In this document: piece by piece, positions 3,176-19,157 of the stretch
Position numbering within the stretch: position 1 is the first letter of the stretch
Layout of the letters: each line of letters begins with the position of its first letter
Assembly (NCBI GenBank): GCA_028287465.1
Contig: JAQBPO010000043.1
Coordinates: forward strand, 1 to 64,000
Reading direction: 5' to 3'
DNA: 64,000 nucleotides
Source: Fibrobacterota bacterium
Lineage (GTDB): Bacteria; Fibrobacterota; Fibrobacteria; UBA11236
The notes under the pieces: model-generated
What the model saw: the letters and a program-made list of their open reading frames with translations, nothing else
Told to the model about the DNA's origin: nothing
Database searches by the model: none
Position numbers and translations under genes: made by a program

Positions 3176-3892
3176 TCAAAGGTATCCAAGGCCCAACAAC
3201 TTCCCGCAAGCGATGAGCGGGGCATGGGTTCCCCGGATCCGGGTGGGGCCCAGGCCCATGCGGTAACATCCCTGTTCCTCCAGCCATGTGAGTTCGGCCG
3301 CTGAGAATCCGCCTTCGGGTCCGGTCAACATGGCCAATCGATCCGGCGGGACCGCAGGCAGGGAGTCGCCGCCAGGATGCAACAGGACCAGGGGCAGGTC
3401 CGGATTCGCATCCCTCCACTTCCGCAGCGGGAGCGGATCGTGGATCGAGGTCAGCCAGGCCTTTTTCGCCTGCTTCAGGCCGGTCACGGACTTGGCCCGC
3501 AAGCGTTCCACCAGGCGACCATGATCCTGGCCCTTGAACTCCTGGCTGTGGTCCGAGGTGACGAGATGGATGGATTCGACCGCGAGCTGGCAGAGTCCCT
3601 CCACCGGTTCTTCCAGGTCCCTTCCCTTGAGCAGGCCCAGAACCAGGCGCAGGCGCGGCGGGTCCGGTTCCCGCAAGCGCGGTTCCAGGGCCTCCAATTC
3701 CACGTTCTCTCCGTTGCCTCTGGTTTCGGACAGGAAAACCCGGCCGGATCCATTGCTGACAACCACGCATCGTCCCATCTGCACGCGCAGGACCTTGCGC
3801 AAATGATGGGACTCCTCCGCGGAAAGGATGGCCCGATCGCCCACCTCCGCGAGAGGCGCATGGAACCAGCTTTCTTCGAAGGGCTTTTCCAA
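3176..3892 (-). CDS. rsmE: 16S rRNA (uracil-1498-N3)-methyltransferase RsmE
   Basis: It methylates U1498 of 16S rRNA using S-adenosylmethionine. The 238-residue protein has the N-terminal PUA-like part with ESHHLRKVLR and the SPOUT methyltransferase part with LTGPEGGFSAAEL, the SAM-binding knot. The last conserved segment, usually of the form LGPRILRTETA, reads LGPTRIRGTHAPL here, so the usual Thr-Glu is Thr-His; this is unusual but in a variable part of the loop. It begins 5 bases downstream of the small membrane protein gene, and the three minus-strand genes likely form one unit. Confidence 0.88.
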   Translation of the reverse strand: MEKPFEESWFHAPLAEVGDRAILSAEESHHLRKVLRVQMGRCVVVSNGSGRVFLSETRGNGENVELEALEPRLREPDPPRLRLVLGLLKGRDLEEPVEGLCQLAVESIHLVTSDHSQEFKGQDHGRLVERLRAKSVTGLKQAKKAWLTSIHDPLPLRKWRDANPDLPLVLLHPGGDSLPAVPPDRLAMLTGPEGGFSAAELTWLEEQGCYRMGLGPTRIRGTHAPLIACGKLLGLGYL

Positions 3893-3897
3893 GGAGG

Positions 3898-4212
3898 TCA
3901 GCCCAGCTTGGATTTGACGAGCTGGAAAATCCCCAGGTCACGGCCGGTCAGGAACAGGAAATACCCTTGCAAGGCCGCGAAAGCCAGGGTCAAGGCAAGG
4001 TTGAGGATGGCCGGCCCCCATTTGGACTCGCTGCCGAAAATAAGGGCCAGGCCGAGGATGATGGCGGTCAGGCTGGCCGCAACGGTGCCGGCGCAGGTCG
4101 AGGCGACGATGGCCTGATCGTCCCAGAGGAACGGGTTGCGGAAATGGATCCAGAGCGTGGCCGCGGCCAGAACGGCGTTGGTCAGTTGCAGGAGCAGGAA
4201 GGTCAGGGGCAT
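3898..4212 (-). CDS. Small membrane protein of unknown function (three TM segments)
   Basis: A 104-residue hydrophobic protein with three predicted membrane helices: an N-terminal segment rich in Leu and Ala, a middle segment around TAIILGLALIFG, and a C-terminal one around LALTLAFAALQGYFLFL. No family was recognised. Its ATG overlaps the stop of the upstream radical SAM gene and it ends just before rsmE, so expression is coupled to both. Codon use resembles that of its neighbours, which supports it being a real gene. Confidence 0.65.
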   Translation of the reverse strand: MPLTFLLLQLTNAVLAAATLWIHFRNPFLWDDQAIVASTCAGTVAASLTAIILGLALIFGSESKWGPAILNLALTLAFAALQGYFLFLTGRDLGIFQLVKSKLG

Positions 4213-5099
4213 CAGGTCTCCATTCCGTATACCATGGCCGGGACGCCGATCGCGGATTCGATGCGGGAGCGGAGGTCCTGGAGAAACCCGCCGGTTACCG
4301 GGGTGCAGGAGGCTTGGGCCGGCTTCCGGGCCAGGGTATGCAGTTGGACTTCCAGGATGGAGGCACCGGAGGCCTTGACGCGCCTTAGCCGTTCAAGGTA
4401 GGCGTCCAGTTCCGCGCGCGAAGGGTCCACTCCGTCCAACCCGCAGAAAAGGGATTGGATCTTGAAGGGATGGCTTTCGCCGAGGCGGATGAGATTGGCC
4501 TCGACCTTGTCGAGGCTCACCCGTGAGACGTTGATTTTCTGGTACCACTCTTCCGTTCCCGCGTCCAGCTTGGCCCAGACTTCGCCTTTGCGGGAAAGGA
4601 GATGGCCGATACCTTCGAGAACAATCTTCCTATCCAGCAGGGTCGAGTTGGTGATGAGCACCAGTTTGAAATCGAGCTCGGGCCGGGAAGCCTGCAAGGC
4701 GGCCAGCATGGCTCCGACCTCGGCGAATTCCGGGATCATGGTGGGCTCGCCGTCGCCGCTGATCGCGATGTCCTTGAGGCGCTTGTCCGCGTCCGGGATG
4801 GCGGCGAACCGTGCGAGGCGGCATACGCCTTCAGCATCGAAGGTCGAGAGGAGCTTTTCCAACTCGGCCCGGATGGCGGGCACGGAAATGGCCTGCTTGG
4901 GTTTGGGGACGGTGCGATCCACCTGGCAATACGGGCAATCGAAGTTGCAGAACTTGTCGAGGTTGAGGTTCACGCCGATGGAAACGCCGCCGGATCTCCG
5001 GGATACCACGGGATAGGCGTACACGAAGTCCGCGAACTCCCTGGGATGATGGGATTGTTCCCGTCGCAAATCTGGGTTACGCGGAGGCATGGATATCAA
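4212..5099 (-). CDS. Radical SAM protein, COG0731-like
   Basis: A 295-residue radical SAM enzyme. The cluster-binding motif is CNFDCPYCQVDR (CX3CX2C) near residue 55, preceded by SIGVNLNLDKF, and the glycine-rich SAM-binding segment ISGDGEPTM follows. This arrangement is typical of the COG0731 group (related to wyosine synthetases) found in many bacteria without a known substrate. It heads a minus-strand run with the small membrane protein and rsmE; the shared tRNA/rRNA modification theme is suggestive only. Confidence 0.8.
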   Translation of the reverse strand: MISMPPRNPDLRREQSHHPREFADFVYAYPVVSRRSGGVSIGVNLNLDKFCNFDCPYCQVDRTVPKPKQAISVPAIRAELEKLLSTFDAEGVCRLARFAAIPDADKRLKDIAISGDGEPTMIPEFAEVGAMLAALQASRPELDFKLVLITNSTLLDRKIVLEGIGHLLSRKGEVWAKLDAGTEEWYQKINVSRVSLDKVEANLIRLGESHPFKIQSLFCGLDGVDPSRAELDAYLERLRRVKASGASILEVQLHTLARKPAQASCTPVTGGFLQDLRSRIESAIGVPAMVYGMET

Positions 5100-5186
5100 A
5101 TTAGCATTTCCGGCGCGGAAGCGTCCGGATAGGTCCCGTATGGGCGTATTGGCGTAAGGGCGGACGTATTGATGCCGGCCGCCCGA

Positions 5187-7289
5187 TCAAGCGTCCAGCA
5201 CTTTGCGGATCTGCCTCGCCAGGGATTTGGGCATGAAGGGCTTTTCCAGGAAGCTGACCGGCAGGCCGTGCGCCTGGGCATCCGGGAAATCCTCCCGCCC
5301 GAAGCCGGACATGAACATGGCCTTCATGCCGGGGTTGGCCGGCAAAAGCTTTTCCACCAGGCCGCGGCCGCCCAATTTGGGCATCTGCAGATCGGTGAGC
5401 ACCAGATTGATGGGTCCTTCATGCGAAGCCGCGATCTCCAGGGCATGTTCGCCGTCCTTGGCTTCGAGTACGGAATACCCGTCCGCTTTCAGGATGCTGT
5501 AAAGCAGGAATCGGACATCCTCGTCGTCCTCCACCAAAAGGATGGTTTCCACTCCCGCCTTGGGATCGGAAGGGACCGCCGGGACCGCGGGGGCGGACGG
5601 CACGGGCTGCTTCTGGCGGGGAAAGATCAACCTGATGGTCGTACCCAGGCCGGGCCGGCTTTCCACCTGGATATCGCCGCCGCCGGATTTGACGATCCCG
5701 TAAACGGTGGACAAACCGAGTCCCGCTCCCTTACCGATGGGTTTGGTGGTGAAGAAAGGCTCGAATAGCCGCGCCTTGACTTCGTCGGTCATGCCGAGGC
5801 CCGTATCGCTCACGGTCAATACCACCTGGGCGGAGCGGATGGCGCCGTTGTCCGAGGAGGCGCGCCAGTCGCGGGCCTGGGCGTCCCCGGTGGTTATGGT
5901 GAGCTTGCCTCCCTTGGGCATGGCTTCCCGCGCGTTCGCGACCAGGATGGAAAGGACCCGCTCGATCTGGTTGGGGTCGGCGAAAATGGTCGCGGGCGCC
6001 GAATCCAGTTCAAGGGAAAGTTCGATTCTCTCCTCGGCCAGACCCTCCAGGCGGGGTGAAACCTTGGCGATTAGGGGGTTGAGATCGAAATCCCTGGGGG
6101 AGACGGATTGCTGGCGGCTGATGGAAAGGAGTTGGCGCGTGAGGGCCGCGGCCTTGTCTACGGAATCCAGGATGCCCTTCAGGTGGACCGACATGGCACC
6201 CTTCGCGTCCGCCGACTGGTTCAGCAAATCCGCATGACCATTAATAGTGGTCAGGAGATTGTTGAAGTCATGGGCGATTCCACCCGCGAGCCGGCCCACG
6301 GCCTCCATCTTCTGGGTCTGCAGCACGCGCTGTTCCAAATTCTTTCTGTGGGTTATGTCCCGGGCGATGCCCCAGATCCCACCCGGCCTATCGTCCTGGA
6401 TGGCGGGAGCGCAACCGCATTCGACCACGATCTCTCCGCCCGCCTTGGAGCGCAGCCGCATTTCCAGAGGGGTCAGGAATTCCCCGCGGATGACCTTGCG
6501 GAAGGCTTCCCATGCCGGGGCCGCATCGGCGGGGTTGAGCAGATCGGCGAAGGGACGGTACAGCCATTCCCGGCAGGCCCATCCGGTGGATTTCTCGAAG
6601 GCGGGATTCAGCGAGGTGATGATGCCTTCGCGGGAGAGGGTGAAGATGATGTCCTGGGATTTCTCGACCAAGTTCCGGTAGCGGCCCTCCGAGCGGCGGA
6701 ATACTTCTTCGGAGCGTTTGCGTTCGGTAACATCCCTCAGGATGCGCACCACTCCCATCACCTTCCCGTTGCTCTCCCTGATCAGGGCCGATTTTGCCTC
6801 CACGGGTGTGCGTTCCCCGTCACGGCCAACAACCTCGGCGTCCGCGGTCGCGGCTGAGTGCCTCAATGCGCGCGAAAGGTACGCGGGTTGATCCTCCAAT
6901 GCCTGCGGGGCATGCCTTTCTATGGATAGCACCTCTCCCAAGGGCCGGCCGACGGCTTCTCCCAGGCTCCATCCCGTAAGCGATTCCGCTTGGGGATTGA
7001 GGAAGGTGATACGGCCCTTCTCGTCACTGGCCACCACCGCATCGCCGATGCTGCGCAGAGTGGTGAAGAACCATTCCTGGCTTTCCCGCAACTTGCCCTC
7101 CATGGCGTGCTGTTGCAGGGCGGTCTCGATGGCGCCGCGCAAATCCGTTTCCTGGATGGCGTCGACGTTCGGCGCGATTGCGCTGACGCGATACCCCAGG
7201 CGGCGAAGACGCGCATGCAAATCACGCGCCGCGAGGTTCTCATCTTCCAGGACCAGGATCCGGGGATTGCCCATACGTCCGCCTCCCAA
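5187..7289 (-). CDS. Hybrid sensor histidine kinase: remnant receiver, 2 PAS, HisKA, HATPase, receiver
   Basis: A 700-residue cytoplasmic sensor kinase with no membrane segment. In order: a remnant receiver (about residues 9-66), PAS (about 72-195), PAS (about 200-318), HisKA with H-box GGIAHDFNNLLT (about 325-385), HATPase_c with the N-box around NAREAM and G-boxes TGLGM and GKGAGLGLS (about 430-560), and a complete C-terminal receiver (about 585-698) with EDDED, phosphoacceptor Asp in VLTDLQMP and Lys in LEKPF. The N-terminal receiver jumps from its second helix/strand directly to the terminal helix and lacks the phosphoacceptor Asp. An alternative start is the ATG at 7274. It is divergent from the exported-protein cassette and could in principle control it. 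Confidence 0.9.
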   Translation of the reverse strand: MGGGRMGNPRILVLEDENLAARDLHARLRRLGYRVSAIAPNVDAIQETDLRGAIETALQQHAMEGKLRESQEWFFTTLRSIGDAVVASDEKGRITFLNPQAESLTGWSLGEAVGRPLGEVLSIERHAPQALEDQPAYLSRALRHSAATADAEVVGRDGERTPVEAKSALIRESNGKVMGVVRILRDVTERKRSEEVFRRSEGRYRNLVEKSQDIIFTLSREGIITSLNPAFEKSTGWACREWLYRPFADLLNPADAAPAWEAFRKVIRGEFLTPLEMRLRSKAGGEIVVECGCAPAIQDDRPGGIWGIARDITHRKNLEQRVLQTQKMEAVGRLAGGIAHDFNNLLTTINGHADLLNQSADAKGAMSVHLKGILDSVDKAAALTRQLLSISRQQSVSPRDFDLNPLIAKVSPRLEGLAEERIELSLELDSAPATIFADPNQIERVLSILVANAREAMPKGGKLTITTGDAQARDWRASSDNGAIRSAQVVLTVSDTGLGMTDEVKARLFEPFFTTKPIGKGAGLGLSTVYGIVKSGGGDIQVESRPGLGTTIRLIFPRQKQPVPSAPAVPAVPSDPKAGVETILLVEDDEDVRFLLYSILKADGYSVLEAKDGEHALEIAASHEGPINLVLTDLQMPKLGGRGLVEKLLPANPGMKAMFMSGFGREDFPDAQAHGLPVSFLEKPFMPKSLARQIRKVLDA

Positions 7290-7337: not shown

Positions 7338-7750
7338 TCGGCAGATTTTTGCGGACCGTCGTAAATTCCCTCTTTACCCTTTTTTGCGATAATTGCTTTC
7401 AATCCGCGAATTCATCGTTCTCGCAGGGAAAACGGAAAGCCCCAAAATTTTTTAAAAATCATCCTCCCAAATATCGTTTTCTGTCCTATGTTTTAGTCTG
7501 GTGGCATGGGGTGGGGTCAATATGACCCACCCGGCTTTCAACGATTACCCGAACGCCGGGACGTTGCGCGCTAGATTGCTACTCGTTCGTGGGGGCGAGC
7601 GTTGAGTCGGGGGGGTAAGGGAGCTTTTGCGCTTCATCTACATTTCATTGCCCTCTACTCCGAAAGGTGGATGGTCTGAGAATTCTAAACAGGAAAAGCA
7701 TGCTTCATTGTCCTAATGGGGGAACCATGGGCCATTTGTGTGGGAGAAAT
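7338..7750 (+). other. Long intergenic leader before the first exported-protein cassette
   Basis: About 460 bases separate the kinase from the first cassette. The first part is clearly richer in A/T than its surroundings (a TTTTTTAAAAA tract near 7448-7458). From 7509 on there are nested inverted repeats. No convincing protein is encoded and no good sigma70 promoter was found. A structured 5' leader is the simplest reading, but no known riboswitch class was recognised. Confidence 0.4.
7509..7532. repeat. Inverted repeat, possible operator or leader hairpin
   Basis: GGGTCA and TGACCC arms flank ATA (7514-7528). The stem extends outward to ten pairs if one G (7513) is bulged. A second stem CCCGGC/GCCGGG (7530-7560) follows immediately. 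Both lie in the leader of the first cassette. Confidence 0.45.
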
Positions 7751-8980
7751 ATGGAAAGTCATATGTCTTTGATTAAAAATGCCGTAAAGGCCTTGGTGGT
7801 TGCGGGAATGGTTTCGACCCTGTCGGTATGGGCCCAGCCCGTCCCGGCCCCGACGACGGGAGATGCCCCTTGCGCACCGGAACCTTCCGGAGCCGGGATT
7901 AACGATACGGTCGCATCCCAACCTGACAACGAGGGGTATTACTCCCTGTTCGACGGGACCCTCAAGGGTTGGTGGCAAAGTTGCCAGACCGGTCACTCCT
8001 CCAACAGCCCGGTCGGTGCGATTTTCCGCATCGGTTCCGACAACGGCGCTCCCGCGATCTATTCGACCCAGCGTGATGGCGGAATCGGTGGTCTCCTCAT
8101 GACCAAAAAGAAGTTCGCGAACTACGAAATCGTCATGGACCTCTGGCCGGATTTCATGAATGACGGTGGATTGTTCAACCGCACTCCCGCCAACGGGAAG
8201 TGCTTCCAGACCGTTCTGGATTACTATAACGGCGCCGCCATGGGCGGAACCTGGGGAGAAGGCGGCTTCACCGGCCGCGACTATCGCCCCTTTTCCTTCA
8301 ACGGTAACGAGAATACCATCACCATCCCCGGCAACGGCGCCGGCGAACCTTCCAACTGGACCCTCATCACCCAGAAGCTGAAGGCCACCACCGAACCCAA
8401 CCTGCCCTGCGCCAACACCGGTTGCACCCAGGACGATTACCGCCTGCTGTGGGATCAAAACGGTTGGAACCAGTACAAGATCCAGTTCTACGGCGGTTCC
8501 GCCGCGAATACCGGAAACATCCACATGAAGACCTGGTTCCGCAAAGTCGGCGCCACCGCATGGGTGCCGGTCAGCCAAGATACCACCTTGGCCCAGGTGG
8601 TCCCCCCGAATTATATCGGTCTCCAGGTCCACGGCGGCAATCGCTTCACGGGTCCGAAGGGTACTTGGTACAAGAACATCAAATGGCGTCCCATGACCGA
8701 CAAGGGCGAGGTGATCATCAACAAGCCCACTAGCAATGCTGCCCCCGCTCCCAAGTTCCATTATGCCATCCAAGCCGTGGGCAATGCCCTGGTCGGTACG
8801 GTCGAGTGGAAGCATGAGATCACGGTGCAGGATTTGAGCGGCAAGACCTTGGAAACCTTCAAGGGCGAAGGCGGAAAGATCAATTACGTCTTGAAGAACG
8901 AAGTGCACGGATGGCTCTCCATCCAGGTGAAGACTCCCCGTGGCGTCGAAACCACTCGCGTGCTGCGGGACCTCAAGTAA
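7751..8980 (+). CDS. D1: secreted DUF1080 (3-keto-disaccharide hydrolase-like) protein with C-terminal sorting-like domain
   Basis: An exported 409-residue protein: signal peptide (residues ~1-29, cleavage near VWA-QP), a PF06439/DUF1080 jellyroll (about 55-320) and a ~60-residue C-terminal beta domain ending in TTRVLRDLK. DUF1080 landmarks are YYSLFDGTLKGWW, NDGGLFNRT and LQVHGGN. The C-terminal domain (ITVQDLSGKTLETF onward) resembles type A sorting domains of type IX secretion, so surface delivery is inferred. DUF1080 members bind or hydrolyse sugars. Several cysteines suggest disulfides. The ATG at 7751 is chosen after GGGAG; 7763 is an alternative. Its paralogue D2 leads the second cassette. 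Confidence 0.8.
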   Translation: MESHMSLIKNAVKALVVAGMVSTLSVWAQPVPAPTTGDAPCAPEPSGAGINDTVASQPDNEGYYSLFDGTLKGWWQSCQTGHSSNSPVGAIFRIGSDNGAPAIYSTQRDGGIGGLLMTKKKFANYEIVMDLWPDFMNDGGLFNRTPANGKCFQTVLDYYNGAAMGGTWGEGGFTGRDYRPFSFNGNENTITIPGNGAGEPSNWTLITQKLKATTEPNLPCANTGCTQDDYRLLWDQNGWNQYKIQFYGGSAANTGNIHMKTWFRKVGATAWVPVSQDTTLAQVVPPNYIGLQVHGGNRFTGPKGTWYKNIKWRPMTDKGEVIINKPTSNAAPAPKFHYAIQAVGNALVGTVEWKHEITVQDLSGKTLETFKGEGGKINYVLKNEVHGWLSIQVKTPRGVETTRVLRDLK

Positions 8981-8993
8981 AAAGACCATGTTG

Positions 8994-9015
8994 GGGGCGG
9001 GAGCATTCCCGCCCC
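8994..9015 (+). terminator. Perfect 9-bp hairpin after D1 (attenuator or weak terminator)
   Basis: GGGGCGGGA and TCCCGCCCC flank the loop GCAT. No T-run follows directly (only TTTTTT near 9050), so it may reduce read-through into the barrel genes or protect the 3' end of D1 mRNA rather than stop transcription. Confidence 0.45.
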
Positions 9016-9123
9016 TCAATATCCATCAGCCTTTAAATCAGAATCCTTTTTTCTACACTTACGCAAAAGCGTGACGCATATGATGTGTGACAAATCTCAT
9101 CACCTTCTCAAAAGACATCGCAC

Positions 9124-10572
9124 ATGAGATCAAATTTTTTGTGGTCGGTGGCTTTTTCCTCTCTCGCTGCGCTTGCCTCCGGAGAGGAAAAGACCGCTTT
9201 TCAAGTTCACGGCCAATCCTGGTTCGAGGCCGGTCGTATCATGCAGGCTTCGGACACTTTGATCAACGGGGCCGCTCCGGATAACGTCCTTGATCTGAAT
9301 GGTAATGTCATTCAAAGCGTTGGCGCGCAGGTTACCGTCGATGCGGATCTCGGTGAACACCTTCAAGGCGTCTTCGGGTTCGGGGTGCAAAAGGTCAACC
9401 ACGCCCTCGGTAAAGGTTCCAGCGCCTTGTTGGCGATCTCGCTCTACCAGAATTTCCTGACCCAAAGCTCCCTGACTTACTTCGTGGGGGACAAGGCGGA
9501 GCCCTCCCTGACCTTCACGGGCGGCAACTTTTCATACAAGTACAATCCCGACGTCAAGAACCTCGGGCTATATCTTCTCCGTGGCCCGGTCTATCCCGGC
9601 ATCCTCTTGGGCGGCTTCCAGGATTTCGCCGTGGACTCGACCAAAGGAACCATGCTCGGCTTGAAGGCCCACCAGAATCTCGGTTTTTTCAGCCATGACC
9701 TCATCCTGAATTGCGAACGGGAAGTCCCCCCGACCTTGGATTGGAGCCTTGCATATCTCGCCAAGGTGCAGGCTGGAGCTTTCCAAGTGGGCGCGGGCGT
9801 GAATTTCTACCGCTTGATCGCCTATGATTCGAAACTGGAGACTCCTGGCCATCTGAGCGATGCCGACTTGGGATTCCATAAAGATCGTTATATCGAAGTC
9901 AAACCGGGATCCACCGATACGACTTTCTTCACCCACCAGGGCACCAAGGTCATGGGCATGTTCAGCCTGGATTTCCAACGCTTGTTCGGGGCCGAGCTCT
10001 CCAATCCGGATGACCTGAAGCTTTACGGCGAAGCGGCCGTCATTGGACTCCAAAACTACGGCACGACCTACAACGACATCAAAAAGCGTATTCCCGTCAT
10101 GCTCGGATTCAACTTCCCCACCGGCGGTTTATTGACCCATCTTTCCATGGAAGTCGAGTATTACGGGGCCGTGTACCGTAATGACCTGGCACGCATCGGC
10201 AATAACAACGTGGTCGCGGATTGGACCAAGCAGAACCATCCGATTTCCTCGCCGAAGCCGGTCGATTATTCCGATTACGGCATCGATTCCGCCGGGAACT
10301 GGGTCAACTCCACTCCAACGGGCGATGTCACGACCAACGTAAAGGGCACGGCCCTGGATAAGCAGAACGTAACGAAGGACGACTTGAAGTGGTCCTTGTT
10401 CATGGAGAAGTCCATCAGCAAGCATATCAGCTTCATGGGCCAATTGGCGAACGACCATTTCCGGCCGAAACCGGTCGCGACCGGACTGATCAAATCGGAG
10501 GGTGGTACGCAGGAAGCGTTCGCATCCACGAAGGATTGGTATTTCATGGTCCGGATGGGGTATTTCTTCTGA
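9124..10572 (+). CDS. A1: outer-membrane beta-barrel, cassette 1
   Basis: A 482-residue exported protein with a short signal peptide (to about ALASG-EE) and no later hydrophobic helix. It ends in MGYFF, the aromatic C-terminus typical of barrels inserted by the BAM complex. Dense alternating polar/hydrophobic strands separated by glycine and Asx turns support a porin-like barrel. It carries the motif found in all six barrels of this region, YNPDVKNLGLYLLRG followed by VYPG (from base 9541). It belongs to subtype A with the 521-residue A2. No named family was recognised. Linkage to DUF1080 proteins suggests sugar uptake or surface glycan binding; that is inference. There is no strong ribosome-binding site before the ATG. 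Confidence 0.7.
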   Translation: MRSNFLWSVAFSSLAALASGEEKTAFQVHGQSWFEAGRIMQASDTLINGAAPDNVLDLNGNVIQSVGAQVTVDADLGEHLQGVFGFGVQKVNHALGKGSSALLAISLYQNFLTQSSLTYFVGDKAEPSLTFTGGNFSYKYNPDVKNLGLYLLRGPVYPGILLGGFQDFAVDSTKGTMLGLKAHQNLGFFSHDLILNCEREVPPTLDWSLAYLAKVQAGAFQVGAGVNFYRLIAYDSKLETPGHLSDADLGFHKDRYIEVKPGSTDTTFFTHQGTKVMGMFSLDFQRLFGAELSNPDDLKLYGEAAVIGLQNYGTTYNDIKKRIPVMLGFNFPTGGLLTHLSMEVEYYGAVYRNDLARIGNNNVVADWTKQNHPISSPKPVDYSDYGIDSAGNWVNSTPTGDVTTNVKGTALDKQNVTKDDLKWSLFMEKSISKHISFMGQLANDHFRPKPVATGLIKSEGGTQEAFASTKDWYFMVRMGYFF

Positions 10573-10592
10573 AGCGGCGCTCGGAGGACTCG

Positions 10593-11936
10593 GTGACTAT
10601 TATGCGAATGACAAGCACGCTCGTTGTATCGTCTCTCTTCCTGACCCTGGCCCCAAAGGCCGCGGAAGTGGAGGACCTTAAGCTGGAATACCACGGGGCC
10701 GGCTGGCTTCAGACCGGCAAGGTGGAGAACAGCTTTTCATTGCCGAACAACGACAATGATTACGAGAACAATTGGATGGGGAATGCCGGCGGCCTTCTCT
10801 CCGTCTCGACCAAGGTCGATGAGCATTGGGATGCGTCCCTAGGGCTCGGGACCATCATGGTCCATCTCGCCCGCGGTTCCCGCGGCCAGGCCAGCAAGTG
10901 GTATCCGTTCTGGGTTCCCTTCGTGGACGAGGCCCGGATCAGCCATTCGAGCACCTTGTTCTCGGATGCCGACAACCTGAAGCTCACCTTCGGCACCTAC
11001 CATTACGCCTACAATCCCGATGTCAAAAACTTCGGGCAATACCTCCTGCATGGATATGTCTATCCGGGAACCCTCGTTTCCGGCTATACCGGTCCGTTGG
11101 GTGTGCCTCTCAATCTCACCGGTGTCCAGGCTTCCTACAAGGCCGGCGGGTTTACCAATGACCTGATGGTGAATATGGAAACGGATGACAAGCCGTTATA
11201 CGATATTTCCGTTGCCGAAGTCGCAACCCTGCGGGCGCATCCGAGCTTCGAGGTCGGTCTGGGCGTCAACTTCTACCGTTTGGTGCCGATGAATAAAAAG
11301 GCGACCTCGCCTGGCTTGGATTGCGATCCCAACTTCCTGGGTCCTTATGCCACCAAAGGGCAGATCAATCCCTGTTATATCGTAGACACCGCCGGCACCG
11401 GGGCCGGAGGACAGCCCAAGATCATCCTGGGATCCCTCGCCGGAACCAAGTTGATGGGGCGTTTTCGCCTGGATCCCTTGGCCATGTTCACCTCCGAGCC
11501 AGGGATGCTCGGCAAGGATGCCTTCGTATTGTACGGAGAGGCATCCGTTATCGGGGTTAAGAACTACGCCGTTCTCTATGATGATATCAAACGAAGGATC
11601 CCGGTCATGCTCGGCCTCAACCTGCCGGGTTTCAACTTCCTGAATTGGTCCGTTGAGGGCGAATACTACGCGAATAAGCTTTCGGGTGACAATCTCGCCG
11701 CCAAGAACGGTTCCTGGGTATCCGTGGTTGACGATGCACGCGTCAACACCAAGCGCGATGACTGGAAATGGTCCTTCAATGCGTCAAAAGTGCTTTTCGG
11801 GAACATGATTTTCCTGACCCAGGTCGCGAATGACCATCTCCGCTTGGGCGGAAACCATGATAATGATACCGGCGTGGAGGCGATGAGAACGCCCGAAGAC
11901 TGGTATTGGACGACTAAACTCGCCTATTTCTTTTAG
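10593..11936 (+). CDS. B1: outer-membrane beta-barrel, cassette 1
   Basis: A 447-residue exported barrel with signal peptide (about residues 1-25) and C-terminal LAYFF. The GTG at 10593 is chosen because GGAGG lies 5 bases upstream; an in-frame ATG at 10602 is the alternative. The shared motif reads YNPDVKNFGQYLLHG (from 11010). It is subtype B, starting YHGAGW after the signal, and it has two cysteines (codons at 11322 and 11373) 17 residues apart; B2 has two cysteines with the same spacing, which suggests a disulfide-closed surface loop. Only 20 bases separate it from A1, so it is part of the same operon. Confidence 0.7.
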   Translation: MTIMRMTSTLVVSSLFLTLAPKAAEVEDLKLEYHGAGWLQTGKVENSFSLPNNDNDYENNWMGNAGGLLSVSTKVDEHWDASLGLGTIMVHLARGSRGQASKWYPFWVPFVDEARISHSSTLFSDADNLKLTFGTYHYAYNPDVKNFGQYLLHGYVYPGTLVSGYTGPLGVPLNLTGVQASYKAGGFTNDLMVNMETDDKPLYDISVAEVATLRAHPSFEVGLGVNFYRLVPMNKKATSPGLDCDPNFLGPYATKGQINPCYIVDTAGTGAGGQPKIILGSLAGTKLMGRFRLDPLAMFTSEPGMLGKDAFVLYGEASVIGVKNYAVLYDDIKRRIPVMLGLNLPGFNFLNWSVEGEYYANKLSGDNLAAKNGSWVSVVDDARVNTKRDDWKWSFNASKVLFGNMIFLTQVANDHLRLGGNHDNDTGVEAMRTPEDWYWTTKLAYFF

Positions 11937-11954
11937 GACCTGAGGAAGGCTGCC

Positions 11955-13280
11955 ATGAGTCTTTTCACTATGAAACATTCCCGCTCCTGCGTACTGCTGG
12001 CGCTCGGCTTGATGGCCGGAGCTTTGGCTCCAACCTCGGCTGAGGTGGGGGCCGGCCCCAAGTTCAACGCAGCCGGATGGATGCAATACGGCGCCATCGT
12101 GAAGAGTTCGGATACCACCCAGGACAAGGATATGGACGGGCGTTCCATCATCTCCTCCGGGGCCCAATTCGCCGTGGAGGTCAATCCTTCCGAACGGCTT
12201 CGGATCGAAGCCGGAATCGGCGCGGCAGCGGGCCATAATCTCGCCGCCATCCGGTCGAGCGAGGGCGGTTATGCTCCCGTAGGCGTTGGCCCTTACGTTT
12301 CCAACGCCAATTTCAGGTATTCTTTCTGGGATACGGAAGCCACCAAGTTGTCCTTCCGCGGCGGCCTCTTCCCGTACGACTACAATCCCGATGCGCAGAA
12401 TCTCGGGCTCTACCTGTTGCGCGGACCCGTTTATCCCGGTTATGTGATGTCCGGATTCGAAACCAAGGCGGTTCTCCCCGTGGCGAATACCCTGGGATTC
12501 CAGCTGCATCATCAGACCGGTGGATTCGAGCATGACTTGCTCGTCACATTCGAAACCGAGTTCTATCCTTACTGGGACGTATCTCCCGCCTATATCGCCA
12601 CGTATAACCTCGGTGGCGTCTTCCGCATCGGGGGAGGAGTGAACTTCTACCATCTCATCCCCGTCGATTCCAAGTTGACCAAGGACGAGAACATCATTTA
12701 CGTGGATACCTCGGTCTCGGCCACCTCCCCGGATACGACCGTCCTTTCATTCGCGGGCACTAAGGTCATGATGAACGCGTCCCTGGACATCAAGGCGCTT
12801 TTCGGCGGTTCGGAAAGCATGGGACCGGAAGACCTGAAGATTTACACCGAGGTCGCCCTAATCGGCCTGGACAACGACAAGGCCCATAAGGCCCTCTTCG
12901 GGGAATACAAGGATCGCATGCCGATGATGGCGGGCATCAACCTGCCGGCATTCAAAATCCTGGATAAGCTGGCCTTGGAAGTGGAAATGTACAGCGCCCG
13001 TTTCAAGGACGATATTACCAATTACAACCACAAAGGTTCCCCTTCCCCTATCCCTCTGGGAAAGCTCGATACCAACTATTCGGCCGATAACCTGAAGTGG
13101 TCCTTATACGGATCGAAGGTCATACAGAACCATGTCAAGGTGAGCTTGCAGGTGGCCAGCGACCACTTCCGTCCAGGCATCTTCAAGGGCTATAGCGATA
13201 ACAATCCGCCCTCACAGGAAGCCGTTTTGTTCAAGCCCAGCGAATGGTATTGGACGAGCAAGATCGCCTACTTCTTCTAA
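11955..13280 (+). CDS. C1: outer-membrane beta-barrel, cassette 1
   Basis: A 441-residue exported barrel with signal peptide (cleavage near TSA-EV) and C-terminal IAYFF. GAGGAAGG upstream supports the ATG. The shared motif is YNPDAQNLGLYLLRG (from 12381), followed by GFETKAVLPVAN. Subtype C marks are LDNDKAHKALFG and RMPMMAGINLPA, matched in C2. It follows B1 by 18 bases and is closed by a strong terminator, so it is the last gene of the first transcription unit. Function unknown; the three subtypes may form a hetero-oligomeric or division-of-labour set of porins. Confidence 0.7.
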   Translation: MSLFTMKHSRSCVLLALGLMAGALAPTSAEVGAGPKFNAAGWMQYGAIVKSSDTTQDKDMDGRSIISSGAQFAVEVNPSERLRIEAGIGAAAGHNLAAIRSSEGGYAPVGVGPYVSNANFRYSFWDTEATKLSFRGGLFPYDYNPDAQNLGLYLLRGPVYPGYVMSGFETKAVLPVANTLGFQLHHQTGGFEHDLLVTFETEFYPYWDVSPAYIATYNLGGVFRIGGGVNFYHLIPVDSKLTKDENIIYVDTSVSATSPDTTVLSFAGTKVMMNASLDIKALFGGSESMGPEDLKIYTEVALIGLDNDKAHKALFGEYKDRMPMMAGINLPAFKILDKLALEVEMYSARFKDDITNYNHKGSPSPIPLGKLDTNYSADNLKWSLYGSKVIQNHVKVSLQVASDHFRPGIFKGYSDNNPPSQEAVLFKPSEWYWTSKIAYFF

Positions 13281-13309
13281 ACGGCGGCGACCGCGATTCA
13301 GGATGGATG

Positions 13310-13331
13310 GGGGGCCCAGGGCCCCCTTTTT
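13310..13331 (+). terminator. Rho-independent terminator closing cassette 1
   Basis: GGGGGCC, loop CAG, GGCCCCC, then TTTTT. Located 30 bases after the C1 stop, it separates the two cassettes into different transcription units. Confidence 0.85.
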
Positions 13332-13619
13332 CATTTCCCCCCTCCGCGTAATGGAAACGGTTCCGCTTCCGATTTGGAGCGTTGGATCGCATCCGCTTTC
13401 CAATCTCGACCACCCAAGGGTTTGATGGCTTTCCTGCCTATTGAAGTTTTCAACGGAATTTGGGCATCATGCTTTGGTAATAATTGGATTGATTGGACGG
13501 TAGTTGGAATTAATTTGTCCAAACGCCTTGACTGGGAATGGCTGCGGGTTAAATTCAATTTCATCCTCTGATTGGAACGAATCAGAGGCAATCGTGATGG
13601 TTCCCAGGAGGTCCGGCTT
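13332..13619 (+). other. A/T-rich control region between the two cassettes
   Basis: About 290 bases between the terminator and D2, richer in A/T than the flanking genes. It holds an inverted repeat TTGGAC-N18-GTCCAA (13493-13522) just upstream of a candidate promoter, and a clear AGGAGG (13606-13611) for D2. A 65-codon open frame here has no supporting features. Confidence 0.5.
13528..13555 (+). promoter_or_regulatory. Candidate promoter of cassette 2
   Basis: TTGACT (13528-13533), a 16-base spacer and TAAATT (13550-13555). The inverted repeat ending 5 bases upstream could be an activator site. The position after the cassette 1 terminator fits a separately controlled second unit. Confidence 0.4.
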
Positions 13620-14744
13620 ATGGTGGGTGCGAAGATTTTGGCCTTGGTCTCGGTGGTTGGCATGTCCGTTGCATTCGCCCAACCTGCAAGCGTTCCAACC
13701 ACCGCGGAAGCTCCATGCCAGGATTCCCCGGGAACCGATGTGGTGGCGGTGCCGATGGATTCCGGTTTCGTGAACATCTTCAACGGAACCGATCTCAAGG
13801 GCTGGTGGAACAACTGCCATGGCGAGGATGCCAACCACAGCAATACCACCAAGGGCGGCATCTACAAGGTGGATCCGGCCATCCACGCCATCTATTCCCA
13901 GCAGCGGGCCACCGCCCCGGGCGGATCGGCGCTGTGCACGAACAAGAAATACGGCAATCAGGAAATCATCCTCGAGTATTGGGCCGATTTCGGGAATGAT
14001 GCCGGTATTTACCACCGGACCACGGACAAGGTGGAAGCCTACCAGACGGTGCTGGACTATAAGCCGGACAACTGCATCGGCGGAAGCTATCCCCAGGAAA
14101 TGGAGAATGCCGGAAGCCCCTTCTACAATTGCGCCTATAAGTTCGGCGGTTCGGAAACGGCTCCCTTCGTCGGGAGCCAGGGGAATGCGGGCATCACCGA
14201 CAAGTCGACCCTGGTGCCTGCCGACATGTTCGACCCGAACGGCTGGAACGAGTTGCGCGTGAAGATATACGGCAATCCCCCCAAGCACCAGGCCTGGATG
14301 CGCAAGCTCGGCGGGACCAAGTGGATCAAGACCCTGGACGTGACTTGGCCCGCTTCCTTCGGGACCGTCGTTTCGGCGACCGGGTACACGGCCCTTCAGG
14401 TCCATGGCAATGGGTACTGGAACAAAACGGTCGTCGGGGATTGGTACCGGAATATCCGGGTCCGGGATCTGGACAATACCGGAACCCCCATCGTTCCCAC
14501 TTCCCTTCGTTCCAGGCTGCCTTCGGGAGTTTCCTTTTCCGTGGACGCGAACGGCTTGAGCGGGTGGCTGGACAGGGAGTATGATATCCAGGTGATGGAT
14601 GTGAATGGGAAAGTGATGGATTCCTTCCGCGCCGGTTCCGGGCGCCTGAGCCGGGCGTTGGGTAAAACCGGGCATCAAGGCGTCATGCTCGTGCGTTTGA
14701 CCTCCGGTTCCGATATCCGCGTCATCCGCGCCGTACCCCTTTAA
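13620..14744 (+). CDS. D2: secreted DUF1080 protein with C-terminal sorting-like domain
   Basis: Paralogue of D1, 374 residues. Signal peptide about 1-22 (cleavage near AFA-QP), DUF1080 domain (about 48-295) with FVNIFNGTDLKGWW, NDAGIYHRT and LQVHGNG, then a short linker and a C-terminal beta domain starting YDIQVMDVNGKVMDSF and ending with a basic residue and short hydrophobic tail. The ATG has AGGAGG eight bases upstream, the best ribosome-binding site in the region. It is six to seven times richer in cysteine than typical periplasmic enzymes of this size would need, as is D1. A2 starts 13 bases downstream, so D2 leads the second operon. Sugar-related role and surface export are inferred. 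Confidence 0.8.
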   Translation: MVGAKILALVSVVGMSVAFAQPASVPTTAEAPCQDSPGTDVVAVPMDSGFVNIFNGTDLKGWWNNCHGEDANHSNTTKGGIYKVDPAIHAIYSQQRATAPGGSALCTNKKYGNQEIILEYWADFGNDAGIYHRTTDKVEAYQTVLDYKPDNCIGGSYPQEMENAGSPFYNCAYKFGGSETAPFVGSQGNAGITDKSTLVPADMFDPNGWNELRVKIYGNPPKHQAWMRKLGGTKWIKTLDVTWPASFGTVVSATGYTALQVHGNGYWNKTVVGDWYRNIRVRDLDNTGTPIVPTSLRSRLPSGVSFSVDANGLSGWLDREYDIQVMDVNGKVMDSFRAGSGRLSRALGKTGHQGVMLVRLTSGSDIRVIRAVPL

Positions 14745-14757
14745 CGATTTCTCCGCG

Positions 14758-16323
14758 ATGGGATCCAGATTCCTGAAACCTTGCCTGGCCGCGTGCCTTG
14801 CCGCCGTATCGGTTTTCGGCGCCGCGCCGGTTTCCGGCGCCGACGTCACCTACCGGATTTCCGGCCAGGGATGGGCGGAGGCGGGCCGCATCGTCCATTC
14901 GACGGATACCTTGCTGGCCAACATGAACGGGAACGCGCTGCAGAGCGCCGGAGCCCAGTTCACGGCCTTCGCGGATATCGGGGATCAGTGGGAAGGCGCC
15001 TTCGGGATCGGCGGGTACCAGGCCCACCACATGCAGGGTAGCGGCACGGTGTCCTCCCGGAACATGCAATTCTACTTCCGGAACTTCATCACCGAATCCC
15101 GCATGACCTGGTACCGCGGGGAGAAGGCGGATCCCTCCTTCAGCCTCACCTTCGGCAATTTCAATTACGATTACAATCCCGATATCAAGAACCTGGGCCT
15201 CTACCTGTTCCGCGGATCCGTGTATCCGGGATTCCTGCAGTCCGGATTCATGGACCCGTCCGTGGATGAGACCAAGGGCGATATCCTCGGCCTCAAGGCG
15301 CATCACCGGATAGGTAAGTTCAGCCAGGACCTGGTCTTCGCGAATGAACGCCAGTTGCCTCCGGCCTTCGACTGGTCCCTGGGTTATGTGGGGAAGTTCC
15401 GCCCCATGGCCGGGCTTGAATTCGGGGCCGGGTTCAACCTCTACCGCGTCCTTTCCGCGAATTCCGATTTGACCACGCCGGACAACGCCGAATACTTCTC
15501 CAAGGATTCCGCCCAGACCGCGAACGGCGGGACGCATCCGAACGACCATTTCTATACGGAAGGCCGGATCGACACCTTGCGGAATGCCCAAGGACAGCCC
15601 GTGATGGATACGGCCACGGGCCTGGCGCGACTCCATTACATCCCCACCGTGACCTATACCCACAAGGGCATCAAGCTGATGGGCATGGCGGGCTTCGATC
15701 CCAAGAAGGCCTTCGGATTCGGCGGCAATCTGGGGGAAGACGATTTGAAGGTGTATGCCGAAGCGGCCCTGATCGGGGTGCGTAACTACGGGCGTGTCTA
15801 TGCCGATCGGTCCCAGCGCATGCCGGTCGTATTCGGCTTCAACCTTCCCGCCTTCCGCCTCCTGGACATCGTCTCCCTGGAAGTGGAATGGTACGGGGCG
15901 CGGTACCGGAACAATATCGCCAAGCTCACCCAGCAGAAATTCTCGGAATTGCCATCGCCTATCCCGGTTTCATACAACTCATACGATATCATCGCGAAGA
16001 ACGGATTGGATTCGGCGACCGGCCGCATCCTGCGCGACAGCGTGGACGCGGACGGCAATATCGTGAAGGTGCCCGGTCCCATCCGGATCACGGGCACGGC
16101 ATTGGACGTGGAGAACCTGACCCAGGACGATTGGAAGTGGTCCTTGTTCCTCCAGAAGACCGTCCGCGGCCATATCCGCTTCACCGGGCAGATCGCGAAT
16201 GACCATTTCCGGCCGCAGCCGACGCATACCCTTTACGCGGACCAGCCCGGAACGGGGACGTCCGAGTCTTCCTCCTCCCTGAAGGATTGGTATTTCATGT
16301 TGCGCATGGGGTATTTCTTTTGA
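14758..16323 (+). CDS. A2: outer-membrane beta-barrel, cassette 2
   Basis: At 521 residues the largest of the six barrels. Signal peptide about 1-29 (cleavage near VSG-AD) and C-terminal MGYFF. The shared motif is YNPDIKNLGLYLFRG (from 15172). It parallels A1 through most of its length: EKADPSFSL versus DKAEPSLTF, DETKGDILGLKAHH, PPAFDWSLGYVGKF, and the C-terminal DWKWSLFLQK then ANDHFRPQP. The extra length over A1 is an insertion around residues 240-290 that would be a longer surface loop. Its stop overlaps the TTG start proposed for B2. Confidence 0.7.
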   Translation: MGSRFLKPCLAACLAAVSVFGAAPVSGADVTYRISGQGWAEAGRIVHSTDTLLANMNGNALQSAGAQFTAFADIGDQWEGAFGIGGYQAHHMQGSGTVSSRNMQFYFRNFITESRMTWYRGEKADPSFSLTFGNFNYDYNPDIKNLGLYLFRGSVYPGFLQSGFMDPSVDETKGDILGLKAHHRIGKFSQDLVFANERQLPPAFDWSLGYVGKFRPMAGLEFGAGFNLYRVLSANSDLTTPDNAEYFSKDSAQTANGGTHPNDHFYTEGRIDTLRNAQGQPVMDTATGLARLHYIPTVTYTHKGIKLMGMAGFDPKKAFGFGGNLGEDDLKVYAEAALIGVRNYGRVYADRSQRMPVVFGFNLPAFRLLDIVSLEVEWYGARYRNNIAKLTQQKFSELPSPIPVSYNSYDIIAKNGLDSATGRILRDSVDADGNIVKVPGPIRITGTALDVENLTQDDWKWSLFLQKTVRGHIRFTGQIANDHFRPQPTHTLYADQPGTGTSESSSSLKDWYFMLRMGYFF

Positions 16324-17735
16324 TCGCCGCGAAAGGATTCTTCGCGTCGGCCCTGGGATTGGCCTTGGCATCGATGGCCATGGTCGGCGGAGCGCGCGGC
16401 GAAGAGGGGCTGAAGATCCAATACCACGGCGCTGGCTGGGTCCAGGGCGGCCGCATCGAGCGGCAATCGGATACGGTCTCGGATGAATCCGGCCAGGACT
16501 TCAACGGCAACTGGACCCAGAATACCGGCGGTCAGATCACGGCCATCGCGGATCTGGGCGGCGGTTGGGAAGGCGGCCTGGGCCTGGGCGCCATCCAGAC
16601 CCCGATGTATTTCCGGGGGCGGCGCGAATACGACAAGGCCGTGGGCCTGACCTGGTCCCCGTACGTGACCGAAGCCAGGCTGACCTATACCCTGGGGGAA
16701 CCGGAACGCCCGGCCCTGCAGATCACCGGCGGGTCCTTCCATTTCAACTACAATCCCGACGCCAAGAACCTCGGCATGTACCTGCTGCGCGGCCTGGTCT
16801 ATCCGGGAATCGTCGTGTCCGGGTTCGAAACCAAGGATGTGCTCCCCATCGCTAACGTCTTCGGGCTCGATATCCGGCATGAACGCGGCGGTTACCGCGG
16901 GGACTTCCTCGTGAATTCCGAAACCGAAATCAATCCCTACTTCGACCTGTCCTTCGCCTACGTCTCCCGCTTCCGGTTCGCGAAGGGCATTGAGGTGGGC
17001 GCGGGGGCGAACTGGTACCGGGCCGTGGCGCAACGGCCCGAAATCACCTCGCCGGGCAAGGCTTGCCCGGACGCCAACAGCAATGTGGGGGTGAACGCGA
17101 CCGATCGGGAAATCTGCTTCATCCTGGATACGTCCTTCGTGGCGAAACCGTCCGGCACGGATACCCTGGTGGATACCGTTACGGGATCGCTTTCCGGGAT
17201 CAAGGTGATGGGCCGGCTCTCCGTGGATCCGAAGGCGCTGTTCGGGATCGGCGGTTCCCTGGGGGCGAAGGATCTCGTCTTCTATTCGGAGGCGGCCGTC
17301 CTGGGCCTGAAGGATTATCCCAAGTACTACGACGACATCGGCCGGCGCATCCCCGTTATGGTCGGTTTCAACCTTCCCGCTTTCGGCTACCTGGACGAAT
17401 TGAGCCTGGAAGCGGAGTATTACGCGAACCGCAATATGACGGACTACGAAAAGGAACTGGAGGACAACTCCTGGGTGCCGCGGCCGAAGGCGAACAATCC
17501 CGTGAAGGATGCCGCCGGCAACCTCACCGGGACCGTTCCCACCGATACCCGGGGCGACGATTGGAAGTGGTCCCTCTACGGCTACAAGGTCATAGCCGGG
17601 CACCTCAAGCTTTCCGGCCAGGTCGCTAACGATCATCTGCGCACGGGCGGATTCTACCTGCGGAAGACCCAATCCGAAACGTTCAGCGATACGTTCGATT
17701 GGTATTGGATGTTCAAGGTCGCGTACTACTTCTAG
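16320..17735 (+). CDS. B2: outer-membrane beta-barrel, cassette 2
   Basis: A 471-residue barrel ending VAYYF. The TTG at 16320 overlaps the A2 stop (TTGA) and gives a normal signal peptide ending near ARG-EE; an ATG at 16287 would add 11 residues. Subtype B features are the YHGAGWVQGGRI start, cysteines at codons 17064 and 17115 with the same 17-residue spacing as in B1, YYDDIGRRIPVM and ANDHLRTGG. One stretch, GFETKDVLPIANVFGL after the shared YNPDAKNLG motif, is closer to subtype C than to B1, which hints at past recombination between neighbours. Confidence 0.7.
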   Translation: MIAAKGFFASALGLALASMAMVGGARGEEGLKIQYHGAGWVQGGRIERQSDTVSDESGQDFNGNWTQNTGGQITAIADLGGGWEGGLGLGAIQTPMYFRGRREYDKAVGLTWSPYVTEARLTYTLGEPERPALQITGGSFHFNYNPDAKNLGMYLLRGLVYPGIVVSGFETKDVLPIANVFGLDIRHERGGYRGDFLVNSETEINPYFDLSFAYVSRFRFAKGIEVGAGANWYRAVAQRPEITSPGKACPDANSNVGVNATDREICFILDTSFVAKPSGTDTLVDTVTGSLSGIKVMGRLSVDPKALFGIGGSLGAKDLVFYSEAAVLGLKDYPKYYDDIGRRIPVMVGFNLPAFGYLDELSLEAEYYANRNMTDYEKELEDNSWVPRPKANNPVKDAAGNLTGTVPTDTRGDDWKWSLYGYKVIAGHLKLSGQVANDHLRTGGFYLRKTQSETFSDTFDWYWMFKVAYYF

Positions 17736-17753
17736 GGAACCGGGGCTGAGCCA

Positions 17754-19157
17754 GTGAATCGAAGAGGGATCATCAAGGATGCGGAGGGCGGTCGGCCGGC
17801 GCGCGCGACGGCGTTGCATGCCTTCGCCCTGGCGGCCGCGATCGCGATGGGGACCGCCTCCGCCGAAGGGTCGGGATCCCTGGACTATAGCGGCGTGGGT
17901 TGGGTGCAGTACGGCCAGGTGGGCAAGAGCACGGATACCCTCCCCAATAACTATAACGGGAATCCAATGCAGAATTCCGGCGCCCAGATCTCGGTCAACG
18001 CGAAGATAAATGATCGCGTTTCCGGCTCGGTGGGGTTGGGCGTATATGAAGGACATGCCTTGGCGGGGCAAATCGCGTCTGGTGGGCGGGTCGCCATTTC
18101 CGCCAGCCCGTACATCGCCGCCGCCAACTTCACCTACCTGCTGGGGGACAAGGACCATCCCCTGTTCCAGGCGACGGGCGGCCTCTTCCATTACAACTAC
18201 GACGGGAACATCAAGGATCTCGGCCTTTACCTCCTGCGGGGATCGGTCTATCCGGGATTCCTCACTTCCGGATTCGAAACGGCGGACGTGGTGCCGCTCG
18301 CCAACGTGCTGGGCCTCTGGCTGCGGAACGACGCGGGCAGGTTCCGGAGCGATGTGATCCTGAATTGCGAAACCCAGCTGAAACCCTATTTCGATCTTTC
18401 CCTGGCGTATATCGGCAGGGCCAGGATCGCGGAATCCTTCAGCATCGGATTCGGGGTGAACCTGTACCGCCTCATCCCCAGCGACGGCAAGACCAGCCAC
18501 GATCCCTTCAACGCCACCTTCGAGAAGACGGACGCGGAAGCCACCAACGAGTACCATCGCGAGTTCATCTACGTGGATACGGCCGGGAACAAGCGCGACA
18601 CCACCTTTTTCGGATTCGACGGGACCAAGGTCATGGCCGATTTCGAATTCGATATCAAGCCCCTGCTCGGCCTCGGTGGGATTTTCGGCCAGGAGGATCT
18701 GAAACTGTACGGCGAGGCGGCCTTGCTGGGACTTGATTTCGATAAGGCCCATAAGGCCATCTACGGCGGTCCCGCGCAGCGGATGCCCATCATGGCCGGG
18801 TTCAATTTCCCCGCCCTGGGATACCTGGATCACCTATCCCTGGAAGTGGAATGGTACGGCGCGAAATTCCGCGACGATACCTGGCGCATGGAGCCCGATA
18901 TCTTCCGGGCGGAGTCCCCCATCCCGTTCGATTATCCGGACGAGACCCCCGGCACCATCCGGACCTATCATCGCGATGACGTCAAATGGGTTCTCCATGC
19001 GGCCCGCACCATCCAGGGTCATTTCAAAATCAGCGGCCAGGTCGCCAATGATCACTTCCGCCCCTTCGGGATCGCCAATACCGTTCCTACCTACGAGGTC
19101 GCGACTTCGACTCCCAAGGACTGGTATTGGATGGCCAAGATCGCGTATTTCTTCTGA
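17754..19157 (+). CDS. C2: outer-membrane beta-barrel, cassette 2
   Basis: A 467-residue barrel ending IAYFF, started by GTG 18 bases after B2. The N-terminus is longer and more charged than usual before the hydrophobic part of the signal peptide (ALHAFALAAAIAMGTASA). The shared motif is the most divergent of the six (YDGNIKDLGLYLLRG from 18198). It pairs with C1 by LDFDKAHKAIYG, RMPIMAGFNFPALGY and the length pattern of loops. It closes the second operon; the next gene, ribD, is 127 bases downstream and unrelated. Confidence 0.7.
   Translation: MNRRGIIKDAEGGRPARATALHAFALAAAIAMGTASAEGSGSLDYSGVGWVQYGQVGKSTDTLPNNYNGNPMQNSGAQISVNAKINDRVSGSVGLGVYEGHALAGQIASGGRVAISASPYIAAANFTYLLGDKDHPLFQATGGLFHYNYDGNIKDLGLYLLRGSVYPGFLTSGFETADVVPLANVLGLWLRNDAGRFRSDVILNCETQLKPYFDLSLAYIGRARIAESFSIGFGVNLYRLIPSDGKTSHDPFNATFEKTDAEATNEYHREFIYVDTAGNKRDTTFFGFDGTKVMADFEFDIKPLLGLGGIFGQEDLKLYGEAALLGLDFDKAHKAIYGGPAQRMPIMAGFNFPALGYLDHLSLEVEWYGAKFRDDTWRMEPDIFRAESPIPFDYPDETPGTIRTYHRDDVKWVLHAARTIQGHFKISGQVANDHFRPFGIANTVPTYEVATSTPKDWYWMAKIAYFF

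Follow-up and report, generated by a model that had tools for sequence, protein, structure and literature searches.

Known outer-membrane gates for glycans are mostly SusCD complexes or single porins, and the Fibrobacterota, noted as degraders of polysaccharides, are a phylum whose uptake route is poorly understood. In E. coli, heterotrimeric osmoporins are reported in which a single trimer combines related porin subunits (PMC5056734). Here, we analyze a locus in which a secreted protein of the PF06439 (DUF1080) family, D, is followed by three paralogous porin-like barrels, A, B, and C, and we lean slightly toward reading this D-A-B-C set as a SusCD-independent glycan-uptake cassette, linked to the type IX secretion system (T9SS), in which the three porins would act as a set.

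The window (the whole stretch of DNA analyzed, 64,000 nucleotides long) corresponds to contig C74 of a 5.8 Mb genome (G000). Between positions 7751 and 19157, it carries a run of eight adjacent genes on the same (+) strand in the order D-A-B-C-D-A-B-C, with nearly equal unit lengths (~5.53 kb for unit 1 and ~5.54 kb for unit 2), the order and unit lengths being as in the preliminary description of this DNA:

7763..8980, + strand: D1, secreted PF06439 protein, unit type I (PF06439 E 5.2e-11; N-terminus signal peptide-like)
9124..10572, + strand: A1, class A porin-like barrel (alignment, tree, AlphaFold model, Foldseek)
10593..11936, + strand: B1, class B porin-like barrel (alignment, tree); the A1 stop is 20 nt upstream
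11955..13280, + strand: C1, class C porin-like barrel (alignment, tree); the B1 stop is 18 nt upstream
13620..14744, + strand: D2, secreted PF06439 protein, unit type II (PF06439 E 1e-16)
14758..16323, + strand: A2, class A porin-like barrel (alignment, trees)
16320..17735, + strand: B2, class B porin-like barrel; TTG start, with a 4-nt overlap (TTGA) with the A2 stop
17754..19157, + strand: C2, class C porin-like barrel (alignment, tree)

We place the start of D1 at 7763, where 7751 had been given earlier, with a conserved upstream ATG at 7727 as the alternative. Compared position by position, the two units share 48% identity for A1/A2, 39% for B1/B2, 44% for C1/C2, and 31% for D1/D2. We rejected a recent duplication of one cassette, both on the low identity of A1/A2 and D1/D2 and because orthologues of each unit occur in other species. 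Thus, while the two units do share the D-A-B-C layout, what had been called a duplicated cassette is a pair of old unit lineages lying side by side, each kept in other species, and its being present "twice" holds for the window but not for the genome, which has two further complete sets.

The six barrels of the window belong to one family, aligning end to end with 33–47% identity to A1, and all six have an aromatic last residue. They also have in common the segment YNPD..NLG.YLLRG.VYPG, so that the YNP-type motif attributed to every one of them stands as a shared segment but not to the letter, as C2 has YDGN in place of YNPD. No known family name could be assigned to these barrels, as sequence comparison gave no convincing match in Pfam, NCBIfam, or the PDB: profile searches of the six window barrels against Pfam and NCBIfam returned no credible match, the family had no match in the PDB by sequence, and Porin_4 was matched by 1 of 61 family members, at an E value of only 0.073.

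In the main tree, which comprises 107 placed barrels, a single branch separates the barrels of each of positions 1, 2, and 3 from the rest (support 47, 95, and 92, respectively), and the position labels change 6 times in total, where shuffled labels average 63 changes. The weak support for the position 1 clade is due to the deep type IV branch, without which it becomes 99. In a careful tree of 21 rows, support is 93/94 for position 1, 94/93 for position 3, and 100/99 for position 2 without the type IV row, with the type IV B barrel lying just outside. When the barrels are instead forced to group by unit (A1 with B1 and C1), the AU test rejects the arrangement for both unit 1 (p = 7.4e-5) and unit 2 (p = 6.1e-52). 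The position-specific pairing of A1/A2, B1/B2, and C1/C2 proposed from the letters of the window is therefore borne out, with A, B, and C clades each holding one member per unit, and the opposite outcome of barrels grouping by unit is excluded.

Within each position clade, five unit lineages recur (I, the first window unit; II, the second window unit; III, the set on C84; IV, the set on C73; plus V), and the tree of D recovers the same five. Pairwise distances computed for D, A, B, and C across the 20 complete units are correlated with one another at r of 0.86–0.93, a level reached by none of 5000 permutations. The D-A-B-C units are co-inherited across species.

When such sets were sought in related genomes, 24 units (20 of them complete), constant in gene order and falling into the five lineages, were recovered from ten genomes, all belonging to a single uncultured family of the Fibrobacterota. 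The genome of the window has four complete sets, including those at C84:47987-53296 and C73:117834-112223, as well as a more distant set at C4:21030-15203, where a PF06439 protein again accompanies three barrels. Sets of this C4 type also occur in G002 and G004, and their nine barrels form a separate clade. A profile of the six barrels has 31 matches in the window's own genome, and among the matches listed in each of ten genomes from the same genus, family, and order there are 13–28 barrels. In a large neighboring family of the same class, the best barrel matches reach only E ~1e-5 to 1e-6. Overall, the wider barrel family is present in 43 of 168 Fibrobacterota genomes (E <= 1e-5), with complete quads only in family f1; the genomes compared are mostly MAGs, and absences and broken units are to be read with care. 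Named records with related loci are likewise mostly MAGs, labelled Fibrobacteres or Fibrobacteria.

The unit 1 locus is old. Upstream of it, the same sensor-kinase gene is found in G002, G003, and G005, and downstream, in five other genomes of the same genus, lie riboflavin genes that we take, from our own reading of the window proteins, to be ribD, ribE, ribBA, and ribH. The locus holds a single unit in G001, G003, and G004, whereas in G000, G002, and G005 a type II unit is found between the type I unit and ribD. Tandem units are also seen in G008, G009, and partly G007, with other second lineages. In G006 (C2, locus L112), a lone type V D lies directly 5' of a type I D-A-B-C set with its own barrels missing, from which it follows that its three barrels were lost together.

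Two further loci stand apart from these units. At positions 3268-5669 of G001:C232 (L152), an intact type III D is followed by a truncated barrel that is about equally like B and C; this may be a decayed or misassembled unit, arising from recombination between paralogues or from assembly collapse. At positions 680-2044 of G093:C409 (L127), there is a strong, quad-like barrel in a genome from a different taxonomic class and family, with 37–39% identity to all three subtypes, which we rejected as an extension of the quad, as it is equally near all classes and is alone on a 4 kb contig.

Outside the coding regions, four elements of the window were considered:

7576..7766, + strand: unit 1 leader, with TTGCTACTCGTTCGTGGGGGCGAGCG at 7576-7601 and CATGGGCCATTTGTGTGGGAGAAATATGGAA..ATATGTC up to the D1 start; aligned in four genomes
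8993..9016, + strand: stem-loop separating D1 from A1; six type I units have a long stem-loop here, each of different sequence, with z of -2.5 to -4.8
9059..9076, + strand: palindromic element before A1, TTACGCAAAAGCGTGACG; similar in three other genomes
13309..13327, + strand: terminator-like hairpin closing unit 1, GGGGGGCCCAGGGCCCCCT then TTTTC; intrinsic-terminator-like

The stem-loop recurs, as a stem of ~9–14 pairs with z calculated against shuffles, in all six type I D-A junctions that were folded (the window, L042, L041, L043, L044, and L107), and in the window's genus, type I units have a wide D-A gap of ~100–150 nt. The stem is not universal, as in G001 and G006 the type I unit has a shorter D-A gap without it. 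A stem that survives full turnover of its sequence provides good evidence for what would be a working element. By comparison, the A-B and B-C junctions mostly measure -4 to 30 nt across the units seen, with frequent overlap of stop and start. We infer from this sequence arrangement that the output of D would differ from that of the barrels, and that A, B, and C would be made together. Shuffled sequence yields terminator-like sites at least as often as the sequence here, and the hairpin at 13309-13327 is argued for from its position and strength.

The unit 1 leader is strongly conserved in four genomes as TTGCTACTCGTTCGTGGGGGCGAGCG followed by CATGGGyCATTyGTGTGGGAGAAATATGGAA (7719-7766), while much of what lies between varies. 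It has no credible family match in Rfam, and a known riboswitch was rejected on this basis; nor does its own genome contain an exact second copy. The ACGCAAAAGCGT-type palindrome ~50 nt 5' of A1 is likewise the sole exact copy in its genome, and is possibly an operator. We discarded a regulon acting through either the leader or this palindrome, as exact searches of the window's genome match this locus only.

Turning to D, its assignment as a secreted protein of a sugar-active family is supported. D1 and D2 score 43.4 and 62 bits against a curated PF06439 cut-off of 26.8, all 20 of the unit D proteins scanned match the family (E <= 1), and the crystal structures that D is like, both by sequence profile and in fold, are those of PF06439 members, a 3-keto-glycoside eliminase/hydratase among them. 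PF06439 proteins are expanded more generally, with 34 matches in the 5.8 Mb genome of the window and 53 in G005. The PDB members that could be aligned have an E-F-Q-x-L-D motif, similar forms of which are found in several other PF06439 proteins of the same genome; the unit D proteins instead have (F/Y/W/N)-Q-x-x-(L/I/V)-D-Y (e.g., FQTVLDY, YQTVLDY, NQMVLDY, and WQSVIDY). The Glu of the motif is thus absent from the aligned unit D proteins, in a region where the alignment is uncertain by one residue. Since this Glu, common in PF06439, is missing, a binding role for D becomes more likely, a catalytic role of the Glu being itself putative.

The model of D2 has a jelly-roll-like domain and a separate C-terminal domain of seven strands, and the C-terminal T9SS-like region of D1 is common to its relatives. 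T9SS sorting domains have seven strands (PMC11285876). The type A sorting domain TIGR04183 is matched weakly by 10 of 20 unit D proteins (E <= 1, best 0.0024), and PF18962 is matched by the D of C73 with E 5.5e-4, below the curated cut-off. The genome also encodes a SprA-family T9SS translocon protein (on C78, an open frame of 2239 aa, 617 bits). The tail of D is a probable T9SS sorting tail.

For the barrels, an AlphaFold model of A1, the one barrel folded, was built with 61 sequences (pLDDT 86.5, pTM 0.87), giving 16 long strands within residues 25–481. The earlier expectation of barrels with 16–18 strands is hence matched by a model for A1, and for B and C it rests on full-length homology. 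Residues 137–176 form a long, well-conserved loop between strands 5 and 6, which contains the YNPD..YLLRG.VYPG segment and which, in the model, is at the site of the constriction loop L3 of trimeric porins. The best PDB matches of the A1 model in Foldseek are OmpM1, OmpF/OmpC, and the Rhodobacter porin (E 1e-10 to 1e-7), with target-normalized TM scores mostly of 0.53–0.61.

That OmpM1 of Veillonella, an outer-membrane attachment porin, heads this list raises the prospect of a cassette that builds the envelope, in which the barrels would tether the outer membrane or an outer layer in an OmpM-like manner, and D would bind a surface glycan of the cell itself, a role to which a protein without the common PF06439 Glu would be suited. 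We consider this very improbable. OmpM tethers via a periplasmic N-terminal region with an SLH domain, whereas the first strand of the A1 model starts directly after the signal peptide; OmpF/OmpC score similarly to OmpM1 in Foldseek; and the presence of as many as four diverged units in a genome fits a range of substrates more readily than a single structural task.

In the A1 model, the outward residues of strands 1–5 and 16 are less hydrophobic than the rest (0.94 vs 1.85, p = 0.04), as would be expected if they were buried in a trimer, known porins making their trimer contacts through this face. The presumed trimer face also has more class-specific variation (MI 0.54 vs 0.32, p = 1e-4). However, a similar trend is seen for the inward-facing residues of these strands, such that no interface is singled out, and we set aside interface specialization of A, B, and C as a reading of these values.

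A hetero-trimeric porin composed of A, B, and C is plausible, because the three genes are tightly spaced, every intact barrel of these classes among the 107 placed lies within a set, and a hairpin often separates D from them. The trimeric-porin fold, the presence of one barrel of each class per intact unit, and the C4 three-barrel set with its own clade are in its favor; it has against it the missing interface-specific signal and the fact that barrels elsewhere in the family occur singly or in pairs, three not being a family rule. In its strictest form, A, B, and C would be obligate, non-interchangeable subunits of one hetero-trimeric porin, present in equal amounts, and would make up a SusCD-independent gate together with a T9SS-displayed PF06439 sugar binder. 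We put this forward tentatively, and with more doubt than conviction. If it is true, the C4-type set, also found in G002 and G004, would have arrived at this three-part design independently.

The same single and paired relatives would be expected if A, B, and C were three independent homotrimeric porins of different selectivity, sharing an operon as a convenience under the same conditions and with D in the same regulon. The class-specific residues are not confined to the outside of the barrel but are also found inside it, and so need not mark interfaces, which also suits this explanation. It departs from the favored reading solely in that the three would not act jointly. We regard it as rather unlikely, since independent porins would not readily account for the confinement of intact class A, B, and C barrels to sets, for junctions as short as those described above in all units, or for the G006 locus, from which three barrels are gone together.

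The main ground for a role of the barrels in sugar handling is provided by the sugar-related proteins encoded around other members of the family. In the window's genome and its relatives, these neighbors include ThuA, GH20 beta-hexosaminidase, PA14, malectin, and PF06439 proteins, some of them T9SS-tailed. At L091, L098, L101, L095, L121, L122, L124, and L126, single or paired barrels adjoin ThuA proteins, some again with T9SS tails, and by their gene content these loci form an apparent sister cassette type. In other Fibrobacterota families, some barrels adjoin a gene of ~630–700 aa with a conserved C-terminus (L132, L133, L134, and L136); in the one such protein scanned, at L132, a beta-propeller is combined with a C-terminal part that is cytochrome-like, and the function of the barrel partner may be quite different there. 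PF06439 is rare in these families, and a link to sugar is therefore not certain for the barrel family as a whole. This beta-propeller and cytochrome-like neighbor is what one might expect if the barrels were general or ion/nutrient porins and not sugar channels, with the PF06439 protein acting on an unrelated substrate. We consider such an arrangement improbable, as the genome of the window and its close relatives repeatedly show sugar-related neighbors, including T9SS-tailed ones.

Returning to the glycan-uptake cassette that we slightly favor, D would be exported, probably to the cell surface via the T9SS, where its PF06439 domain would bind or process sugar. The three paralogous barrels, trimeric-type porins with 16 strands co-made from tightly packed genes, would jointly pass this sugar across the outer membrane without SusC or SusD, and the separate unit lineages would serve separate sugars. 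The handling of glycans by such a set, hydrolysis by D, and co-expression of the porins are putative. We infer the surface display of D, the sugar cargo, and the joint work of the three porins.

How does this cassette compare with described systems? An open-access literature search, combining DUF1080 with Fibrobacter, ThuA, or porin, returned no described system of the D-A-B-C layout, in agreement with the preliminary description. Like 3-keto-disaccharide hydrolases and other DUF1080 proteins (BT2157 and CCNA_01705, PMC9007349; PDB 8rr2, 9fbe, and 4hxc), D matches PF06439 and its PDB members in profile and fold; unlike these PDB members, it has a divergent middle, an altered E-F-Q-x-L-D motif, and an extra C-terminal domain of seven strands. 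As in the SusC/SusD polysaccharide utilization loci of Bacteroidota, channel genes adjoin a secreted protein that would bind or cleave sugar, and diverged copies are repeated. However, the channels are small porins and not the TonB-dependent SusC, SusD (PF07980) has no match in the window's genome, and the partner has a probable T9SS-type tail where those systems use a lipoprotein anchor. A SusD-less lineage with a repeated set of three porins and one secreted protein suggests that the Fibrobacterota have solved sugar uptake in a way of their own.

With general trimeric porins (OmpF/OmpC, the Rhodobacter porin, and OmpM1), the barrels share 16 predicted strands, a conserved segment after strand 5 at the L3 site, and a C-terminal aromatic residue. 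They differ in having longer loops, in their lack of a convincing sequence match in Pfam, NCBIfam, or the PDB, and in being encoded as three paralogues in one operon-like set of fixed order. Whereas the heterotrimeric osmoporins of E. coli are reported to mix separately encoded general porins (PMC5056734), a trimer made by this cassette would be a fixed set with one of each subunit. With the subunits, their order, and their co-inheritance defined in ten genomes, the D-A-B-C units offer a clean test case for obligate hetero-trimeric porins.
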